Source of the DNA: Verrucomicrobiota bacterium
GTDB lineage: Bacteria > Verrucomicrobiota > Verrucomicrobiia > Limisphaerales > PALSA-1396
Length of the DNA stretch: 64,000 nucleotides
Reading direction: 5' to 3'
Assembly: GCA_016200005.1 (NCBI GenBank)
Contig: JACQFP010000023.1
Coordinates: 1 to 64,000 of the forward strand
Under the pieces are notes generated by a model. The model worked only from the letters and a program-made list of their open reading frames with translations, did not search any database and was not told where the DNA came from. Numbering within the stretch: position 1 is the stretch's first letter; every line of letters starts with the position of its first letter. The position numbers were made by a program, and so were the translations under genes. Shown piece by piece: positions 43,263 to 53,481 of the stretch.

Positions 43263-44335
43263 CAGACGCCTCCGGTCACATGGGCCAGTTGAACGCTCTT
43301 GCCGATTTCGACTGAACGGGCGATGGCAACCATCGCCCGCATTGCGGCGACGCCGTCGTCGATGTTCGCGCCGTGTTGCGGGGCGCTGTGCAGAATCGTG
43401 TCGGCAAACCCTTCGATCTGTCGCTTGTAAGTGTGCGCATCCTCGCCTAGCGGACGATGATACTGCCCGTCCTTTGCGGAAAAACATTCCACGACACTCG
43501 ATTTGTGAAACCAAGGCAGATAGATCTTGCCGTTCACGCTGCCTTGTTCTCCATAAACCTGGAAGCCTTCTTCAAAATCGCCGCGCACCGGAATGGTTAA
43601 ATCGAGATGCCCCAGCGCTCCGTTCGCGAATTCCACTTCCACAAACCAGCAAAACGCGCCGAACTTTTCCGCCAGCCGCGCTCGAACGCTGACCAGTTCG
43701 CCACCCAGAAGACGCGCTGTGTCCACGAGATGGCTGGCGTGCGTGAGAATGAAATAACGCCGCTTGTCCGCTTTGGGATTTCCTTCGGGCCGCCGCGCTT
43801 GCGAACTGGTCAACGGAATTGGCTGGAGATTGTCGGTCATGGTGTAGCGATAGGTGGAATCGCAATACCACGCCTTGAACGCCATCATCTGACCGAGTTC
43901 CTCTCGAATGAAGCGCTGAGCGAAGGCGATGCCGGGATCGAAGCGTCGATTGTTCCCGATTTGAAAAACCAGTTTGGTTTCACGCAAACCCTGCCGCAAC
44001 GATTCACACTCTTCAATCGCCACGCCCAAAGGTTTCTCCACGAGGACGTGTTTGCCCACGGCAATCGCCTGAAGACTGAGCGGCACGTGGAATTGATCGG
44101 CAACCGCGATGACGACCGCCTCCACTTGTGGGTCGGCCAGCATCTCATCAAACTTGGAGTATGCCACGCGCGGTTCGTGAATGGCCGTCATCTTCTCGCG
44201 CAAGTCATCGGCCAGATCGCATACGGCGTACAACTCCGCATTGCGCGCTTTGCGAATGGCGTCAAAATGGGCAATCTGTGAAATGGGGCCGCAGCCGAGG
44301 ACACCGACCCGCAGGAGACGAGATTCTTTTTTCAT
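43262..44335 (-). CDS. Gfo/Idh/MocA-family oxidoreductase
   Basis: The 357-residue product has the Rossmann motif VGVLGCGPISQIAHFDA and the catalytic EKPLG (about residue 98), followed by the alpha/beta C-terminal domain. Such enzymes oxidise or reduce sugars, inositols or their derivatives with NAD(P). There is no signal peptide, so it acts in the cytoplasm. Its start overlaps the RuBisCO-like stop as ATGA and its stop overlaps the next start by one base, so the three are one translational unit. Confidence 0.9.
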   Translation of the reverse strand: MKKESRLLRVGVLGCGPISQIAHFDAIRKARNAELYAVCDLADDLREKMTAIHEPRVAYSKFDEMLADPQVEAVVIAVADQFHVPLSLQAIAVGKHVLVEKPLGVAIEECESLRQGLRETKLVFQIGNNRRFDPGIAFAQRFIREELGQMMAFKAWYCDSTYRYTMTDNLQPIPLTSSQARRPEGNPKADKRRYFILTHASHLVDTARLLGGELVSVRARLAEKFGAFCWFVEVEFANGALGHLDLTIPVRGDFEEGFQVYGEQGSVNGKIYLPWFHKSSVVECFSAKDGQYHRPLGEDAHTYKRQIEGFADTILHSAPQHGANIDDGVAAMRAMVAIARSVEIGKSVQLAHVTGGV

Positions 44336-45762
44336 CGCGCTTCTGCAGGATACCGTTGGCGCAACGCTTCGCGCAATGTTTTGAGTTGCTTCCGTTCGGC
44401 CAGCGCAATCAAGGCCGGAAGATGCTCCTCCATTGGCACGTCGCGCAATTCACCGGAGCGATGGACTTCAAGGGCCTGCATCATCGCTTCCGCGCCAAGT
44501 TTCGGATCGGTTTTGCCGGCGGCGTTTTTGATCGAGTTGATCGCCGAACCGGCGAGGAACAAAACATTCTCCGCCATGCCGCGCTTTTCCACGTCGGCGA
44601 GGTTGATGCCGATGTTGCCCTGGTCCAATCCGCCGGCGCGGGCGATCATTGTCGGTTTGATGCCGGGCAACGGGCGCGTGAGTGTCGCCTCGGACGCTTC
44701 CCATTCGAGACCGTAAGGCTTGAGAAACGGTTCACCCGGCTTCACGGGTGCGGTCTGGCGAAAGTCAATGCCGTCGAGCCGCGCCAGCAGATCAATCACC
44801 TCGCGCCAGATGCCGCCACGCGTCTTGACGCCGATGCCCGCGTTGTGACCGTAGATCGCAGGCGGATTCTTCATGTGTCTGGTGGCCTCGCGCACCATGC
44901 GCACGGTGCCGCCGGCGAACGTTTCGCTGAACATCACACCAGTCGCGCCCGCTTCAATCACGGCATGGACGGTTTCGAGAATTTCATTCGGCGCCCCGCT
45001 GATGTGCGGAGCGAAGATGAGTCCGCGTCCGCCCCGTTTGTCACGCGCACGTTGAATGGCTGCCACAGCCTGACGCGTGCGTTCCTTCGCCGGTGAGTAA
45101 TCGAGCCGGGGATAAAGATTCTCGTCCTCCTTCACAAACAAAAACAGCGGACACGCCGCTGCCTCTTCGACCAACACGCCAACCTCCTCCGGCGTGATGC
45201 CAGCCGTTGGCTTGAGAATGGTGCCGAACGCAGGTTCTGCGGGAGCAAAACCGGTCAGCTTGCGAACGCCTTGAGGCCCATAAGCCGGGCCGGGAAATGT
45301 GCGGATGACTTTCTCCGGAATTTGCAACGCGACCAAGCGCACGTCCTGAACCTCGTACACATCAAAGATGATCGCCCCGGCGATGGTGTGAAGAATGTCG
45401 CATGACGTCAGATGACCATCCGGCTGCAACAACATTTTCAACGGAAAGGCGATGTGCAACAAACCGAGGCGCCCCGTGGCATCAAACGCATCGACGCCGA
45501 CAGTTTTGGCGGTGCATTGCTCCAACAATGAACCGGGCGGGATGTGCTTCGTTCCACTCGTCGCGTGGTAACTGATTTCCTTGGCCGCGTGATCAAGACT
45601 CCAACTCCGAAGCGCGAAGAAATAAGTTGTGACGATGAAGTCAACATCCATCGGCGGTGGTTTGGCGGCCAACCGTTCGGTGATTATTGCCCGCAAGAGC
45701 ACTTCGCGAGCGTCGGCATCGTGCCAGAGTGAGTTGAGAGTCGCTGAGTCAATGGCGCTCAT
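44332..45762 (-). CDS. RuBisCO-like protein (form IV-type)
   Basis: The 476-residue product is homologous to the RuBisCO large subunit. FGTILKPTAGIT gives K184 (equivalent to K175 of spinach), but the second lysine (K177) is T186. FVKEDENL gives K211, E212, D213 and E214, the carbamylation and metal site with one D-to-E change. GHNAGIG gives H306 (H294) and TAPVKPGE gives K341 (K334). The phosphate-loop serine (S379) is replaced by Ala in ARAGGLDQG. It is therefore a RuBisCO-like protein and not a CO2-fixing enzyme. Relatives act in methionine salvage or sugar-acid (for example apionate) breakdown; the operon favours the latter. Confidence 0.85.
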   Translation of the reverse strand: MSAIDSATLNSLWHDADAREVLLRAIITERLAAKPPPMDVDFIVTTYFFALRSWSLDHAAKEISYHATSGTKHIPPGSLLEQCTAKTVGVDAFDATGRLGLLHIAFPLKMLLQPDGHLTSCDILHTIAGAIIFDVYEVQDVRLVALQIPEKVIRTFPGPAYGPQGVRKLTGFAPAEPAFGTILKPTAGITPEEVGVLVEEAAACPLFLFVKEDENLYPRLDYSPAKERTRQAVAAIQRARDKRGGRGLIFAPHISGAPNEILETVHAVIEAGATGVMFSETFAGGTVRMVREATRHMKNPPAIYGHNAGIGVKTRGGIWREVIDLLARLDGIDFRQTAPVKPGEPFLKPYGLEWEASEATLTRPLPGIKPTMIARAGGLDQGNIGINLADVEKRGMAENVLFLAGSAINSIKNAAGKTDPKLGAEAMMQALEVHRSGELRDVPMEEHLPALIALAERKQLKTLREALRQRYPAEAR

Positions 45763-45785
45763 TGAAAATAACACCGTCGGCAATC

Positions 45786-46469
45786 TTACTTCAACGGCCG
45801 CAGCTTGATGTTCTTGAACCAACACGGGCTGCCGTGGTCCTGCAAACCGATGTAACCTTTGCGCGGATGGTTCTTGTAGGCGATGTCGAACTTGTGCTCG
45901 CGGCCGTCGGGACGCCGGTTGGGTTGCGTGAACTCGTCCATATTCATGTGCGTGACGTGCTCGCCGTTCAACACAACGTCGATCAGGCTCTTGTTGCAGG
46001 TGATCTCGATATGATTCCACTCGCCGACCGGCTTCATCGCGTTCTTCGTCGGCTTCACGAGATCATAAATCGCGCCGGTGTCGTGATAGCCCGCACCGGA
46101 TGTGTCGTCGATGGCGACTTCCATTCCGTTCCAACCAACGTCCTTGCCGGGCAAGGGCGTGAGCGAAAACGTGTGAACAAAGATTCCACTGTTGCAGCCT
46201 TTGCTGATCTTGAAGTCGAGCGAGAGAACAAAGATCTCCCACTGTTGCGTGTGCACCAGCATGTAATGTCCGGCCTTGTGCGGATTGAGCGCGCCCTCTT
46301 CGACCGGTGTGCGGGGTGGCGTACGGTTGCTGTTCATCCAACCGGATTGTGTCTTGCCATCAAAAAGTAGAATCCAACCTGCGCGTTTTTCGTGGTCCGT
46401 CAATTCGTTGTCAGCGCCAAATAGGGTTGAGGCAAGCGCAAGGAGGATTGCAACGGTTGATGTTCTCAT
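45786..46469 (-). CDS. Exported DUF1080 protein (3-keto-disaccharide hydrolase family)
   Basis: The 227-residue product has a signal peptide (STVAILLALASTLFGA) and a concanavalin-like domain with WILLFDGKTQSGWM, NSGIFVHTF, GWNGMEVAIDD and GYIGLQDHGSPCWFKNIKLRP, all DUF1080 hallmarks. Members hydrolyse 3-keto-glycosides or bind glycans outside the cytoplasm. Its start overlaps the stop of the exported Gfo gene as ATGA. The pairing with an oxidoreductase fits oxidation of a glycoside at C3 followed by cleavage (inference). Confidence 0.88.
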   Translation of the reverse strand: MRTSTVAILLALASTLFGADNELTDHEKRAGWILLFDGKTQSGWMNSNRTPPRTPVEEGALNPHKAGHYMLVHTQQWEIFVLSLDFKISKGCNSGIFVHTFSLTPLPGKDVGWNGMEVAIDDTSGAGYHDTGAIYDLVKPTKNAMKPVGEWNHIEITCNKSLIDVVLNGEHVTHMNMDEFTQPNRRPDGREHKFDIAYKNHPRKGYIGLQDHGSPCWFKNIKLRPLK

Positions 46470-47750: not shown

Positions 47751-50216
47751 TCACGGTTGGGTAAACAGTGCGCGATGAACCGGCGCGGGGTAAGGCACAT
47801 GCGGCCCTTTGGCCACGTACCAAAGAATGCGGTTGAGTTCATCTTCCGGCGCGAGATCATATTCGCTGAAGTTCATCCGACTGGATTCTTTCGCGAAGGG
47901 AGATTTCGCCGTGTTCTTTGCATACAAATCGACCTTGGGCGTCAACATGGTGTAGGGAGTCGCTATGGGCGCGGGACGAAAGCAATTGAACATTGGGGTC
48001 GCGCCCGCGTCGTACTGCGTCAACGGCGGCAGACCGAGGATCAATTCCATCGTGCGGATCATGCTGGCGGTCGTGTAGAGCGTGCTATCGACAATGTGCC
48101 GCTTGCAATATGGACTGATGACCAGACCGACGGTACGATGCGCGTCCACGTGATCGGGACCATTCTGCGCATCGTCCTCAGTGACGAAGATGGCCATCTC
48201 CTTCCAGAATTTGCTGCGCGTCGCCGCTTCCACGATCTTGCCGAGCCCAATGTCGTTGCTCGCCACGCAGGCGTCCGGTGTAAACTCGCCGGGTCGAGTG
48301 CCGCGCGTATGGTTTTCGCCCAGGGACATGATCATGAAGCGCGGCAGATCGCCGCTCTTTTCCGCGGCCTGCAAATCCTTGATCCACCAGTCCACCCGGT
48401 CCTTGTCGCGTCCAGGACCCCAAGTCCCACGATTGATTGAGGGAACACGTTGCGCGCCTTCACCGTAGTTTTTGAAACTCACCCCGTGGCGGCGGCACAA
48501 GTCCCAGAGATAACCGGCGGCGGGATTTTCCATTTCTTCGTTGCCATGCATGCGACCGTGCTTGGAGTAGGAGAGAATCCAGGACCGCTGATTGTAATCT
48601 GTGGCGATGGCGGCGTCGCACCAACTGTGTCCGTCCACGCTGACCTCGCCATTGCAATAAAAATTGTCGAGCAAGACGTAATCGCGCGCGAGTTGATGAT
48701 GGTTCGGGGTCACATTCTCGCCATACATGGTGAGCTTGGGATCGCCGTTGCCGGCGGGTTTGCCGTCGCTGTCCTTGAAATCGCCAAAGACCTGATCGTA
48801 GGTGCGGTTCTCTTTGATGATGTAGAGGACGTATTTGATGGGACAGGGTTCACCAACCTGGGTGGGAATGACACTGTGACTCCGCATCGGCGCGCGATGC
48901 AACGCCTCGGGTGTGTAAGGTGAATTGCGTCGGACCTGTTCCGTATAAGTCGCCATTTGCGCCGAACCGGGTTTGGCGATGAACGAAATGGAGCCTTCAA
49001 ACGTGTCGCCGATATAATCAAACGCCGGTGGTTTGTGCAGGCGGTCGGGTTCTTTCGTCCGGGCTGGCACGTTGGCGCGCGACTTCAGCCCTTTGCCGTT
49101 CGCGACCAGAAGTGTGCGATTGTCCGGACTGACGGCGAGTGCGCTCGGATACCAGCCGACGGGAATGAAGCCATCGGCGACTGACGTTTTTTCGTCGGTG
49201 ATATTGACAACCATCACGTTGTTGTTGTCCGAATTGGCGATGAACAAAGTCTTGCCATCCGGCGAAACGGCGACGGCGGACGGCGTGCTGCCTTCCGGCG
49301 ATTGCGGGTAGAGCGAAGTGGAAATGATTTCGCGCGTCCCGGCCCACAACGGGCGCGCCGGGCTGGCCGGAAGGCCGGGGTTTTCCAATGCTTTTGTCAT
49401 GATGACGTGCACCGTGTTGTCGCCGGCGCAGGCGACGAACAATCGGCCGTCCGGCGCCAGCGTCATGTCGTTGGGTCGGAGACCGACGGTGATGTCGCGC
49501 TCGCGCCGGTTCTTTTCCGTGTCAATAATGCTCAAGCTCCGACTTCCCCAGTTGCTCACGTAAAGGTAACGCTTGTCGGCACCCATCGCGCACGAGTGTG
49601 GGTATTGGCCGACGGGAATCGTCATCTCCAACGCGAGCGTGTCGGGATTGACCACCCAGATTTCGTGATTGCCCTGATTGCACACATAGAGTTTGCCAGT
49701 CGAGGGATGGACAGCGATGGAGCCAAGAAAAGTTCCCACCGCATCGGGCGATGGTTTCACCGTCATGTTCGTGGTGGCTTTGCCGTCTGCGTATTTGAAG
49801 GCGTGAATACTACCGGAATCTCCACCCGACACGAAAATCCGTTTGCCATCCTTGCTGAAGGCCAGACCATTCCACGCCACCGGCAACGGCACAAATTGCG
49901 CCACGCGTTTGCCTTCAAGATCGATCAGCGTCAAGCCAACGTTGATGAAACCGGCGCTCACTGCCACGAGCATTTTCTGGTCGGGCGAGATCATCATTTT
50001 GAGTGGCATGTCGCCCAACAGGACATGCTTGCCCGCTGGCGACACGCCCCAGCCATTGAACAAAAGATTCTCGTCTGGTTTCAGACCGGGCCGCTGCCGC
50101 AAGTCGGCGCTGTTGACGTCCTCGTTCGCCTTGCGTGTGTTCGATTGCCCTTGAGTGTTAAGCGCAATCATGGTGATAGACAGCGAAACGGCGAGTATGA
50201 GTGATGTTTGTTTCAT
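47751..50216 (-). CDS. Exported beta-propeller and phosphoesterase fusion protein
   Basis: The 821-residue product has a signal peptide (about 1-23) and two parts. Residues about 50-400 are YVTN/YncE-type beta-propeller blades (GKLYVCNQGNHEIWVVNPDT, KRYLYVSNWGSRSLSIIDT, GKTLFIANSDNNNVMVVN). Residues about 455-780 are an alkaline-phosphatase-like phosphoesterase (YVLYIIKENRTYDQVFGDF, GHSWCDAAIATDYNQRSW, FVTEDDAQNGPDHVDAHR), with metal-binding Asp and His residues. The combination is known in several phyla and probably cleaves phosphate esters outside the cell. It is the first gene of the six-gene operon running to 42282. Confidence 0.88.
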   Translation of the reverse strand: MKQTSLILAVSLSITMIALNTQGQSNTRKANEDVNSADLRQRPGLKPDENLLFNGWGVSPAGKHVLLGDMPLKMMISPDQKMLVAVSAGFINVGLTLIDLEGKRVAQFVPLPVAWNGLAFSKDGKRIFVSGGDSGSIHAFKYADGKATTNMTVKPSPDAVGTFLGSIAVHPSTGKLYVCNQGNHEIWVVNPDTLALEMTIPVGQYPHSCAMGADKRYLYVSNWGSRSLSIIDTEKNRRERDITVGLRPNDMTLAPDGRLFVACAGDNTVHVIMTKALENPGLPASPARPLWAGTREIISTSLYPQSPEGSTPSAVAVSPDGKTLFIANSDNNNVMVVNITDEKTSVADGFIPVGWYPSALAVSPDNRTLLVANGKGLKSRANVPARTKEPDRLHKPPAFDYIGDTFEGSISFIAKPGSAQMATYTEQVRRNSPYTPEALHRAPMRSHSVIPTQVGEPCPIKYVLYIIKENRTYDQVFGDFKDSDGKPAGNGDPKLTMYGENVTPNHHQLARDYVLLDNFYCNGEVSVDGHSWCDAAIATDYNQRSWILSYSKHGRMHGNEEMENPAAGYLWDLCRRHGVSFKNYGEGAQRVPSINRGTWGPGRDKDRVDWWIKDLQAAEKSGDLPRFMIMSLGENHTRGTRPGEFTPDACVASNDIGLGKIVEAATRSKFWKEMAIFVTEDDAQNGPDHVDAHRTVGLVISPYCKRHIVDSTLYTTASMIRTMELILGLPPLTQYDAGATPMFNCFRPAPIATPYTMLTPKVDLYAKNTAKSPFAKESSRMNFSEYDLAPEDELNRILWYVAKGPHVPYPAPVHRALFTQP

Positions 50217-50336: not shown

Positions 50337-52907
50337 TCAAACTCCCTGAATTCGCTTTTCGTGTCCGGCCCATTCCTTTTCGCGCAGCAGGAACTTCTGG
50401 ATTTTGCCCGAACTGGTTCGCGGCAACGAGGGACGAAACTCAATGGCCGTTGGGATTTTGAAGCTGGCGAGTTTGCCGCGGCAGAATTTGATTAATTCCC
50501 GTTCGCTGGCCTTGACGCCGTCTTTGATTACGACAAAAGCCTTGGCCGTTTCCCCCAATTTTTGATGCGGCACGCCAACCACGGCCACTTCCGCCACCGC
50601 CGGATGGGTATAGAGCGTTTGCTCAATCTCGTTGGAGGAAACATTCTCGCCGCCTGTGATGATGATATCGCGCAACCGGTCGTGAAGCTCGATGTAACCA
50701 TCAGGATGCACCACGGCCAGATCGCCGCTGTGAAACCAGCCACCCCGGAAATCCTTGGCAGTGGCCTCGGGTTCTTTGTAGTAACCCTTCATCACGGTAG
50801 CCCCGCGCATGATAACTTCACCGATGGTTTGACCGTCGGATCGTACGTCGCGCAGGTTTTCGTCCACCACGCGCACCGGATCGCCGATGACGCGCGGAAC
50901 GCCCTGGCGGGACAAAAGATTCGCCTGTTGGGAAACCGAGTGCTCTTTCCAGTGAGCCTGAGCTTCGCAGACCGTGTAAGCTCCGTAAGTCTCGGTCAGC
51001 CCGTAACCGTGGATGACGCGAGCACCCAGTTCTTGCAAGTGTTGGATGAGGCTGGGAGAAGGTTGCGCGCCGCCGATCACCACCGTCAACGGCTGACGTA
51101 AAGTTTTCGGGCGATCGGCGTGATTGATCAACGCGGCCATGACGTTGGGGGCGCCGGACAAATGGGTCACTCCTTCATTGAGGATCAGCTGCCAGGCCCG
51201 GCCAGCGTCAAATCTGCGCTGGCAAATATGCGTGCCGCCAATGGCCGACACCGCCCACGTAAAACACCATCCATTGCAATGAAACATCGGCAGGGTCCAA
51301 AGATACTTTGTCTGCGGCGTAAGGCCGTCCTCGATGATTTCGCCCAACGCGTGCAAGTAAGCCCCCCGATGCACCACCATCACGCCTTTGGGCTTGCCGG
51401 TCGTGCCACTGGTGTAGTTCAGGCTGATGAGTTCGTCTTCATCCTTGAGAAGCCACGCCAGTGGCTTGGGATTCCCCCGGCGAAGAAATTCTTCGTATTC
51501 AATTTCACCGAGCGGTTTGGCGCCGCGTGTGTCGATGATGTCCACCACCTGCTTGAACTTTTCCAGATTGCTTAGAATGGGCCGCACGGTATTGCTGAAC
51601 TCCGAATCGACAAATAGAAACTTGCTGCCCGAATGGCCGAGAATGTATGCGATTTCTCCCGAACCGAGTCGGAAATTGATCGGCACCAATACACCACCGG
51701 CCAGCGGCACTCCGAAGTGAGCTTCCAACATGGCAGGCACGTTGGAACAAATGAAAGCCACCCGGTCTCCCGGTTCGAGGTCGGCATTGCGCAAGGCGGA
51801 CGCCAGCCGGTTTACTCGTTGCTGCAAATCGCCGTAGGTCCAGGATTGCGCGTTATATTTGACGGCCATCTTGTCGCGGTACACCAGCGCGCTGCGTTCC
51901 AGGAATTTCAACGGCGTGAGCAAGCCTTGCGGCGCACTGTGGTCGTTATTCGGATGCGCCAAGGACGTCTCAGCAGAGTGAGTGACCACGTTGTTGCGAG
52001 CGCGCTCCGATGGTGCGCGCTGACTCGCCGACGCCGGGAAGGGAGCTTTCTTGACCAGATCGACAAATGCCCGTGCCGCCGCCGACAGTTCTTTTCCGCG
52101 TCGCGAAATCAAGCCAATCTCGCGAAACAATTTTGGTTCGCGGACCGGCACCGCCACCACGTTGTCCCGCAGGACGCAGGCCACCAGTTGCGGGAGCAGC
52201 ATGACGCCCAAGCCGGCCTGCACCAAAGAGATGGCGGTTTCCTGCTCGCTGCATTCACAGACAATTTGTGGCTCGAACCCGGCAACCCGGCAGAAAGCAT
52301 TGGTGCGTTCCTGATGCACGCCACGAATGACGACGAACTGGTCGCGTTGAAGCTGACGCAACTCCAGGCTCTTCTTATCCGCCAATGAATGCTCGCCTGG
52401 CAAAACGGCAAAGAACGGTTCGTTCCAGATTTCCCGCGCTTCGAAGAGTTGGTTGTTGCAGGGAAGCTGCAAGAAGCCCAGCTCGGTGCTGGAGTCCTCC
52501 ACCAAGGCCGCCACGCCGAGCGAAGTTTCCTCCTGCAACACCAGATTGACGCACGGGTATTCGCGGCGAAAGCTTCGAAAAATATCCGCCAACCAATAAG
52601 TGCCGAGTGCGGGAATAAAAGCGATGGTCAATTTTCCGGCGCGCAACTCAGACACTTCTACAACGGATTGTTTCATCGACTCCGCCATGCCGAGCAGGGC
52701 TTGCGCCTTCTCAAAGAGAATTTCGCCGGCGGGGGTCAGAACCGTTTGCCGCTGGCCACGGATCAACAAGTTCGTGCCGAATTCTTTTTCCAGGTTCTGG
52801 ATTTGCAAACTGAGTGCAGGGGTGGCCAGATTCAACCGGCGGGCGGCGCGCGTAAAACTTTGTTCCCGCGCCACTTCGACGAAGTAACGTAACTGGTAGA
52901 GTTCCAT
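50337..52907 (-). CDS. LysR-type regulator fused to an acyl-CoA synthetase
   Basis: A single open frame of 856 residues. Residues 1-60 are a LysR winged helix (LRYFVEVAREQSFTRAARRLN), and 88-285 a LysR substrate-binding domain (KLTIAFIPALGTYWLADIFR, GLGVMLLPQLVA). A polar linker (about 286-330) leads into a complete AMP-forming acyl-CoA synthetase: YTSGTTGKPKGV at 498-509, HGYGLTETYG, GWFHSGDLAVVHPDGYIEL, and the C-terminal catalytic Lys835 in SSGKIQK. There is no stop between the halves. The linker contains a GTG (about 51987) that could start a separate synthetase. The substrate is likely a fatty or aromatic acid. Confidence 0.9.
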   Translation of the reverse strand: MELYQLRYFVEVAREQSFTRAARRLNLATPALSLQIQNLEKEFGTNLLIRGQRQTVLTPAGEILFEKAQALLGMAESMKQSVVEVSELRAGKLTIAFIPALGTYWLADIFRSFRREYPCVNLVLQEETSLGVAALVEDSSTELGFLQLPCNNQLFEAREIWNEPFFAVLPGEHSLADKKSLELRQLQRDQFVVIRGVHQERTNAFCRVAGFEPQIVCECSEQETAISLVQAGLGVMLLPQLVACVLRDNVVAVPVREPKLFREIGLISRRGKELSAAARAFVDLVKKAPFPASASQRAPSERARNNVVTHSAETSLAHPNNDHSAPQGLLTPLKFLERSALVYRDKMAVKYNAQSWTYGDLQQRVNRLASALRNADLEPGDRVAFICSNVPAMLEAHFGVPLAGGVLVPINFRLGSGEIAYILGHSGSKFLFVDSEFSNTVRPILSNLEKFKQVVDIIDTRGAKPLGEIEYEEFLRRGNPKPLAWLLKDEDELISLNYTSGTTGKPKGVMVVHRGAYLHALGEIIEDGLTPQTKYLWTLPMFHCNGWCFTWAVSAIGGTHICQRRFDAGRAWQLILNEGVTHLSGAPNVMAALINHADRPKTLRQPLTVVIGGAQPSPSLIQHLQELGARVIHGYGLTETYGAYTVCEAQAHWKEHSVSQQANLLSRQGVPRVIGDPVRVVDENLRDVRSDGQTIGEVIMRGATVMKGYYKEPEATAKDFRGGWFHSGDLAVVHPDGYIELHDRLRDIIITGGENVSSNEIEQTLYTHPAVAEVAVVGVPHQKLGETAKAFVVIKDGVKASERELIKFCRGKLASFKIPTAIEFRPSLPRTSSGKIQKFLLREKEWAGHEKRIQGV

Positions 52908-53115
52908 GTGCAGGAAAGCATTTCAGAATTCCGGTCAACAAACAAGCTTCATCACGCTGAGTTCGCCGACTTGGAGGGTCTCGAAAATTGACGAAAAACA
53001 ACATTGGCAATCGAGTTTCTGGACGGCTAGACTCCTGTCTCCAAGAATCTATAGTCCGGTTTTTCAACGCCGACTGGTCTGTATGCAGTTTGAGCTGCGG
53101 CTCGATAAATGATTT

Positions 53116-53481
53116 ATGAATCAACGTATCTTGGTGGTGGACGATGAAGCGCCCACCCGCGAATTACTTTCCCTCTACTTCAAAAAGCGCGGCTACGATG
53201 TGAGCACGGCCAGCACCGCCGAGGACACCCTGCGCCTCGTCAACGAAATGCCGCTGCAGCTCGTGATTCTCGATCTCAACCTCGGCGATTCCAACGGCCT
53301 GGACCTGCTGGCGCCGATTCAAAAGGCCCATCCTCAGATTCCGATCATCATCTTTTCGGGTATCGGTCTGGATGAAGAATCGTTGGCGCTGGCGCGCCAA
53401 AAAGGGGCGACCGGTTACATTCACAAAACCCAACCCCTCACGGAGATGCTCGCCGAAGTGCAACGGGCGCTCCAGAGCTGA
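53116..53481 (+). CDS. Stand-alone response-regulator receiver domain
   Basis: The 121-residue product is a CheY-like fold: acidic pair D9-D10 (VVDDE), phospho-acceptor D53 (VILDLNLGD), Ser81 in place of the usual Thr (IIIFSGIG) and the conserved K104 (YIHKTQPL). There is no output domain. It may pass phosphate to a partner or bind to it. No histidine kinase is nearby. It is divergent from the LysR fusion gene across 208 bases. Confidence 0.92.
   Translation: MNQRILVVDDEAPTRELLSLYFKKRGYDVSTASTAEDTLRLVNEMPLQLVILDLNLGDSNGLDLLAPIQKAHPQIPIIIFSGIGLDEESLALARQKGATGYIHKTQPLTEMLAEVQRALQS

Follow-up and report, generated by a model that had tools for sequence, protein, structure and literature searches.

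A single open reading frame in the window (the whole 64,000-nucleotide stretch of Verrucomicrobiota DNA that was analysed) encodes a complete LysR-type regulator followed by a complete AMP-forming acyl-CoA synthetase, and the same fusion was found in one further genome, G098, which belongs to another family of the same order. Comparison of the two proteins makes it very probable that regulator and enzyme are genuinely, though rarely, combined in one chain, and that no sequencing error is involved. Our preferred reading, to which we would give a probability of roughly one half, is that the protein would act as an acid-responsive one-component LysR regulator into which an ATP-dependent acid processor or second sensor is built, the ligase being coupled to the regulator; we favour it because both modules are complete, share one frame and, having a single origin, appear to have been kept fused over a long divergence.

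Domain layout and a second, diverged fusion

The original prediction described a complete DNA-binding and effector domain running without a stop into a complete AMP-forming ligase, and a Pfam profile search bore this out, as four complete domains, each scoring over its curated cut-off, share one frame (Table 1). The AMP-binding match takes in positions 1-384 of the 384 in its profile, and the AMP-binding_C match positions 1-76 of 76. The large subdomain carries the motifs YTSGTTGKPKG, PMFHCNGW and YGLTE, while WFHSGD lies at about residues 724-729, beyond the end of the AMP-binding match, and the lysine of SGKIQK (K835) is invariant across a 35-row alignment; we take the first and third of these to be A3 and A5, WFHSGD to be A7 and K835 to be the A10 lysine. 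Both subdomains, these motifs and the A10 lysine are the features of the ANL superfamily, and an N-terminal HTH_1 followed by LysR_substrate, both over their Pfam cut-offs, is the layout of a LysR-type regulator, except that the usual LysR protein ends after the effector domain at about 300 amino acids. The protein is a complete LysR plus a ligase, hence our use of the term LysR fusion, and is not a plain LysR regulator.

The best PDB match of the ligase half is ttLC-FACS (1ult, E 2.3e-83), and the LysR half is matched over most of its length by 7w06, the best, and by BenM chains, which come second (E 8e-27). The ligase passes the cut-off of NCBIfam PRK06187 (490.5 bits against 476) and falls short of that of PRK08162 (650.2 bits against 677). 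Judged by these similarities, the LysR half is BenM-like and the ligase is related to the PRK08162/PRK06187 groups, and the two are separated by a variable linker about 30-40 residues long. In an AlphaFold model of the fusion the ligase half was mostly confident and the LysR half mostly had pLDDT <50, because the 35-row input alignment contains no LysR relatives, and with the LysR half so poorly modelled the model is therefore uninformative on the linker and on contacts between the halves.

Table 1. Positions in the window of the LysR fusion, its parts and the adjoining intergenic region
Feature	Position	Strand	Remarks
LysR-acyl-CoA synthetase fusion, 856 aa, single ORF	50337..52907	-	ATG at 52907, stop at 50337
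HTH_1 DNA-binding domain, aa 4-62	52722..52898	-	Pfam PF00126, E 1.8e-22
LysR effector-binding domain LysR_substrate, aa 88-287	52047..52646	-	Pfam PF03466, E 2.5e-45
Linker joining LysR and ligase halves, about aa 293-325	51933..52031	-	
Internal GTG, codon 307, candidate ligase start	51987..51989	-	not conserved in G098
AMP-binding (ANL) large subdomain, aa 336-710	50778..51902	-	Pfam PF00501, E 6.2e-83
Hinge codon, aa 746 (Arg)	50670..50672	-	assigned as R+2 from DltA
AMP-binding_C small subdomain, aa 760-835	50403..50630	-	Pfam PF13193, E 7.1e-23
Intergenic region, fusion to divergent receiver-domain gene; candidate operator region	52908..53115	.	

A search for the same domain order in other genomes found it once, at full length, in G098. 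This second fusion (852 amino acids, counted from the matching ATG) aligns with residues 1-856 of the window protein at 60% identity (E 0) with no stop, and so supports the claim that the two halves form a single polypeptide. The best kept part is the HTH (residues 1-62), at 76% identity between the two, compared with 59% for the effector domain and 60% for the ligase, the LysR halves overall being 64% identical. Conservation extends to both termini, where the closing residues RIQGV are also kept, and the linkers are of similar length with sequences that cannot be aligned. Conserved halves joined by a diverged linker are what would be expected if the protein is a real one with a tether, rather than the product of an accidental run-on. 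The source genome is a draft of 87 contigs, so that a missed stop, a frameshift or a chimeric assembly had to be considered, but such an artefact is extremely improbable given an independent full-length homologue that is also without stops. A lost stop or frameshift as the source of the fusion was rejected on this homologue, and one near 51918-52040, which had been raised as a means by which the original prediction could fail, is now very unlikely.

The other such means was translation of the synthetase only from an internal GTG near 51987. This GTG exists, as codon 307, but it has no counterpart in G098; the purine-rich GGAG upstream of it ends 15 nucleotides ahead of it. The other in-frame starts in codons 281-350 of the window fusion are TTG 316, 329 and 333, GTG 342 and ATG 347, and those of G098 in the same range are GTG 282, TTG 296 and GTG 300 only, with no internal start codon conserved between the two fusions over these codons. 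GTG 282 of G098 has AAGG five bases upstream, is still within the LysR domain and lacks a window counterpart. The ligase half may also be translated separately, at some level.

The A8 hinge and rates of change in the ligase half

Both fusions keep 44 of the 45 near-invariant ligase columns (those with 95% conservation or more among 125 relatives), which makes binding of ATP and an acid by the ligase half plausible. The one column that has changed is the same in both: residue 746, the hinge lysine of A8, is lysine in 125 of 125 relatives, arginine in the window fusion (R746) and histidine in G098. Its position was found by counting from the preceding R744, by comparison with DltA, where the numbering is Arg397/Asp399 (PMC4176424), and the hinge is placed in a GRxD-type motif at the start of A8 in the account of it in PMC11253843. 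As these two sources describe the hinge, the small subdomain turns some 140 degrees about it in passing from adenylation to thioesterification (PMC4176424, PMC11253843), and Asp, in DltA (PMC4176424), and Gly also work as hinge in other ANL enzymes. The hinge lysine is not defining for the whole ANL superfamily, and arginine at the hinge may well work. The rest of A8 is kept in the window protein, and G098 has two further A8 residues, D752 and R755, that are unseen in the 125 relatives. The original prediction had included formation of the CoA ester at the promoter that the protein controls, and this would be the less safe half of that guess, because the hinge lysine is replaced in both fusions and A8 has changed further in G098.

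In relative-rate tests on the ligase half, G098-specific changes outnumbered window-specific ones for 12 of 13 outgroups, with P < 0.05 in 10 of the 13 (uncorrected, and from outgroups that are not independent). With the outgroup L002, which is the second ligase of the window genome, there was no rate difference (43 window-specific changes against 41 G098-specific). The LysR half showed no significant difference with any of five outgroups (P 0.21 to 1). When the test was carried out by subdomain with six outgroups each, P < 0.05 was reached in three for the large subdomain and in one for the small; as the large subdomain is also affected, the G098 excess is therefore not confined to A8-A10. 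Branch lengths in trees agree with the rate tests (ligase 0.28 for the window and 0.64 for G098; LysR 0.24 and 0.31).

These results bear on a reading in which the ligase would perform adenylation only, making and holding an acyl-adenylate and forming the CoA ester inefficiently, while the bound adenylate would signal to the DNA-binding half in the manner of BirA. BirA is a biotin ligase of unrelated fold with its own HTH, in which the adenylate is the signal. It is also the precedent for such an arrangement, likened to the fusion in being an enzyme that represses transcription as well (as BirA is introduced in PMC6978683). The sole near-invariant column lost, in both fusions, is the lysine that serves as pivot in the turn towards the thioester step, the near-invariant adenylation columns stay while G098 adds D752 and R755, and the ligase half has changed more in G098 with most outgroups when the LysR half has not done so significantly. 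We nevertheless consider this reading unlikely, as K to R is a conservative change, Asp and Gly hinges function elsewhere among ANL enzymes, the window protein keeps the remainder of A8, and the rate difference is absent with L002 and reaches significance for the small subdomain in only one of six outgroups. A bolder form of it, in which the fusion would found a new class of one-component regulator that combines a LysR effector domain with a synthetase turned acyl-adenylate sensor, held in adenylation by the altered A8 hinge, is equally improbable. Were it true, the promoter would respond to an acid plus ATP, that is energy state, at once, and the two members would represent two stages of the conversion, with the window protein nearly intact and that of G098 further advanced.

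The faster ligase half and altered A8 of G098 would also be seen if the ligase were a vestigial passenger, decaying beside a LysR half that alone matters. This is very unlikely, since 44 of the 45 near-invariant columns are kept in both fusions and both protein ends, RIQGV included, are conserved, and since decay would probably have introduced stops.

Rarity and origin of the fusion

A strict search of 320 genomes of the order found the fusion in two, the window genome and G098, and this count is a lower bound. No third fusion was found in 384 genomes drawn from the class or 387 drawn from the phylum, with the best few candidates scored per genome, or in 288 and 197 genomes drawn from two other orders. 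The draws overlap and, since only the best few candidates in each genome were scored, the fusion counts are to be read as lower bounds; E-value limits of 1e-70 to 1e-135 applied in all of them, limits which a G098-like fusion (E 0) passes, except for a search of 58 relatives, for which none of the matches listed spans both halves. Contig ends in incomplete drafts can cut a fusion, an example being a ligase piece at the start of contig G036:C317. A contig scan with peptides of the window protein gave at least 80 loci, and those listed all match from residue 268 onward with no fusion among them, though these window-derived patterns would miss G098-like sequences.

Neither a genus mate of the window genome (G001, 82% complete) nor a genome of G098's own genus (G099, 95% complete) gave a fusion match at E 1e-70, and the fusion is therefore dispensable. 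When SMC was used for comparison, 85 other genomes of the order outscored G098 against the window, and the fusion has therefore been lost many times or been transferred. Vertical inheritance alone was rejected on this ranking, which comes from one gene, and on the patchy distribution. For G001 the SMC match (G001:C48:891-4511) was itself broken into four parts spread across 3.6 kb, for which errors of sequencing or assembly may be responsible.

A quick tree was built from 82 ligases (taken from 127 at one row per locus, out of 139 matches of which 135 were long enough), and in it the ligase halves of the two fusions are sisters (SH-aLRT 100), 0.92 changes per site apart. The LysR halves also group as sisters (100/100) in a tree of seven LysR rows, from which duplicates had been removed and of which one is partial. 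Together the two trees point to one fusion event. The nearest sequence to the fusion ligases is a stand-alone ligase of Brasilonema sp. CT11, a separate 536-aa ORF (support 92), and the fusion ligases stand well apart from the clade of this class's ligases, in which the window genome's second ligase is found. The ligase of the fusion was probably acquired from outside. The match to a ligase of Nostoc sp. HK-01 (AP018320.1 197727-200437), 58% identical to the window ligase half, falls into two pieces that carry the annotation AMP-binding enzyme, and a transposase in this stretch has apparently been inserted.

In a plasmid collection, 20 of at least 5000 records matching the window protein cover at least 80% of it in one place, and 15 records do so for the G098 protein. 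The five cases checked contain no fusion, all having separate genes: Rhizobium gallicum pRgalIE4872d encodes a LysR of 299 aa and, 143 nucleotides away on the same strand, a ligase of 519 aa, in surroundings that by eye include an enoyl-CoA hydratase, dehydrogenases, a hydrolase and a thiolase-like protein; the gene table of a Variovorax replicon has a LysR and AMP-ligase pair with one opposite-strand gene in between; and Rhizobium sp. CIAT894 and two Comamonas replicons have LysR and ligase as separate genes by annotation. Such unfused neighbour pairs are likely, by analogy, to show the pre-fusion state, and their identity over both pieces is only 30-33%, so that they are therefore analogues of that state and not its ancestor. 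A tblastn search (E 1e-5) for LysR near stand-alone ligase loci found none at the 80 loci listed, and an ORF-based search gave weak LysR matches at two ligase loci among those listed (L100 and L077); with no LysR beside the listed loci, the ligase family is therefore not generally LysR-linked. Near four of the closest LysR relatives in the order (L138-L141) there was no ligase at E 1e-3 within 11.5-16 kb.

The unfused pairs also accord with a simple tether, in which a regulator and a metabolic ligase, neither of them out of the ordinary, would have been joined for co-production with no allostery, and the two halves might indeed be made together without signalling to each other. A linker whose length is roughly kept and whose sequence is not, and a ligase with all near-invariant columns but one intact, would suit this explanation too. 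It leaves unexplained why the same hinge column has changed in both fusions, and it may be argued that a metabolic enzyme would be oddly placed on a regulator bound to DNA, and so we regard it as doubtful.

Proposed working, related systems and genomic setting

LysR-type regulators bind DNA as oligomers in a ligand-dependent manner. CysB is described as a tetramer in PMC11329422. In our preferred reading, that of an acid-responsive regulator with a coupled ligase, the LysR half would bind DNA as an oligomer and bring two or four ligase modules to the promoter, where the effector domain would bind a small organic acid or a derivative of one, and the ligase would bind this acid, or one related to it, together with ATP, converting it to the acyl-adenylate and the acyl-CoA. 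Ligase occupancy or product would set the state of the regulator, either because the ligase would supply or remove the effector beside the effector pocket, or by tethered allostery between ligase and regulator. The unfused LysR and ligase neighbours seen elsewhere speak for this reading, as do FadD1, DsfR and BzdR as precedents for ligases or other enzymes turned regulators; the patchy distribution, the ligase family's lack of a general tie to LysR, and the lack of common neighbours on the G098 contig or of a convincing common upstream motif speak against it. The proposal that the protein is a trigger enzyme, made in the original prediction, fits this domain content, in which catalytic and gene-control domains are predicted in one chain.

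Few kinds of bacterial regulator are as common as the LysR type, whose members, to our knowledge, nearly always have two domains only. This agrees with a 2010 survey, which in its passages on domain order places HTH_1 upstream of LysR_substrate in every case and mentions no enzyme joined to it (PMC2937223). The fusion has HTH_1 and LysR_substrate in the usual order in common with BenM/CatM, whereas the LysR structures that it matches best are chains of about 290-330 residues without a ligase, which the fusion adds. With the PRK08162/PRK06187 ANL synthetases and ttLC-FACS its ligase shares the 44 columns, and it differs from them by the change of the hinge lysine and by the N-terminal LysR. That no well-described protein has this domain order, as had been remarked of the sequence at the outset, is consistent with searches of the full text of open-licence PMC papers, in which no LysR-ligase fusion was found. 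Regulators fused to enzymes are a known kind of protein, to which we assign the LysR fusion.

Like the fusion, MocR/GabR regulators, in the descriptions consulted, have a DNA-binding domain (a wHTH) connected by a linker to an enzyme-derived domain, in their case aminotransferase-like, and a further example is BzdR, of which BoxR is kin. In BzdR an HTH-XRE domain is connected by a linker to a C-terminal domain resembling shikimate kinase (PMC3602430). The fusion differs from both in its enzyme family and in that its regulator half has its own effector domain, giving two ligand modules. The evolutionary script set out for BzdR in PMC3602430, where a DNA-binding domain was fused to an enzyme whose activity was later lost, is by analogy the nearest one for the fusion. 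Recruitment of enzymes as sensors has been studied with BzdR by building chimeras (PMC3602430), and a natural fusion of LysR to an adenylate-forming ligase offers a direct test of how enzymes become sensors; the pair of fusions may offer a natural before and after comparison, because the ligase half of one looks less changed than that of the other. The fusion also links to recent claims of acyl-CoA ligases as transcription factors, as FadD1 of P. aeruginosa and DsfR of B. cenocepacia are reported to sense fatty acids in this role (PMC12754631, DsfR as described there). They resemble the fusion, as we read it, in that a ligase both senses a fatty acid and acts on promoters, but they differ from it in that no LysR domain is described in the account of them there, which places DNA binding in a part of the AMP-binding domain that resembles a leucine zipper (PMC12754631).

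The gene divergent from the fusion (53116-53481, + strand) encodes a 121-aa response-regulator receiver domain without an output domain. Palindromes and T-N11-A sites were listed for the regions upstream of both fusions, and no convincing LysR box or motif common to the two was found. The best window palindrome (6-1-6, at 53105-53117) overlaps the start codon of the divergent gene and has no equal in the G098 upstream list; judged from the breadth of the search, without shuffles, it is likely a chance match, and a conserved operator was rejected on these two grounds. A conserved neighbourhood was also rejected, as the fusion alone, of 48 window ORFs, matches the 11.3 kb G098 contig (tblastn, E 1e-10). 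In the genus mate G001, the only one of these ORFs with a match in the 20 kb surrounding ggt, at the same limit, was ggt itself. Ten window proteins were scanned, including two oxidoreductases, a RuBisCO-like protein, a beta-propeller/phosphoesterase protein, a gamma-glutamyltransferase, the lone receiver domain and an aldehyde dehydrogenase; no acid-catabolic cluster was seen among the ten, which give no pointer to the substrate.

The RuBisCO-large-chain-like protein (44332-46020, - strand; PF00016, E 1.3e-12) is encoded in a run with Gfo/Idh/MocA oxidoreductases, a xylose-isomerase-like protein and a PfkB kinase, which is possibly a sugar-phosphate or salvage cluster. The gene at 47751-50216 (- strand) encodes an 821-aa protein with beta-propeller matches (SGL, Lactonase and YNCE) and a phosphoesterase match, which we take to be of a known annotated type.
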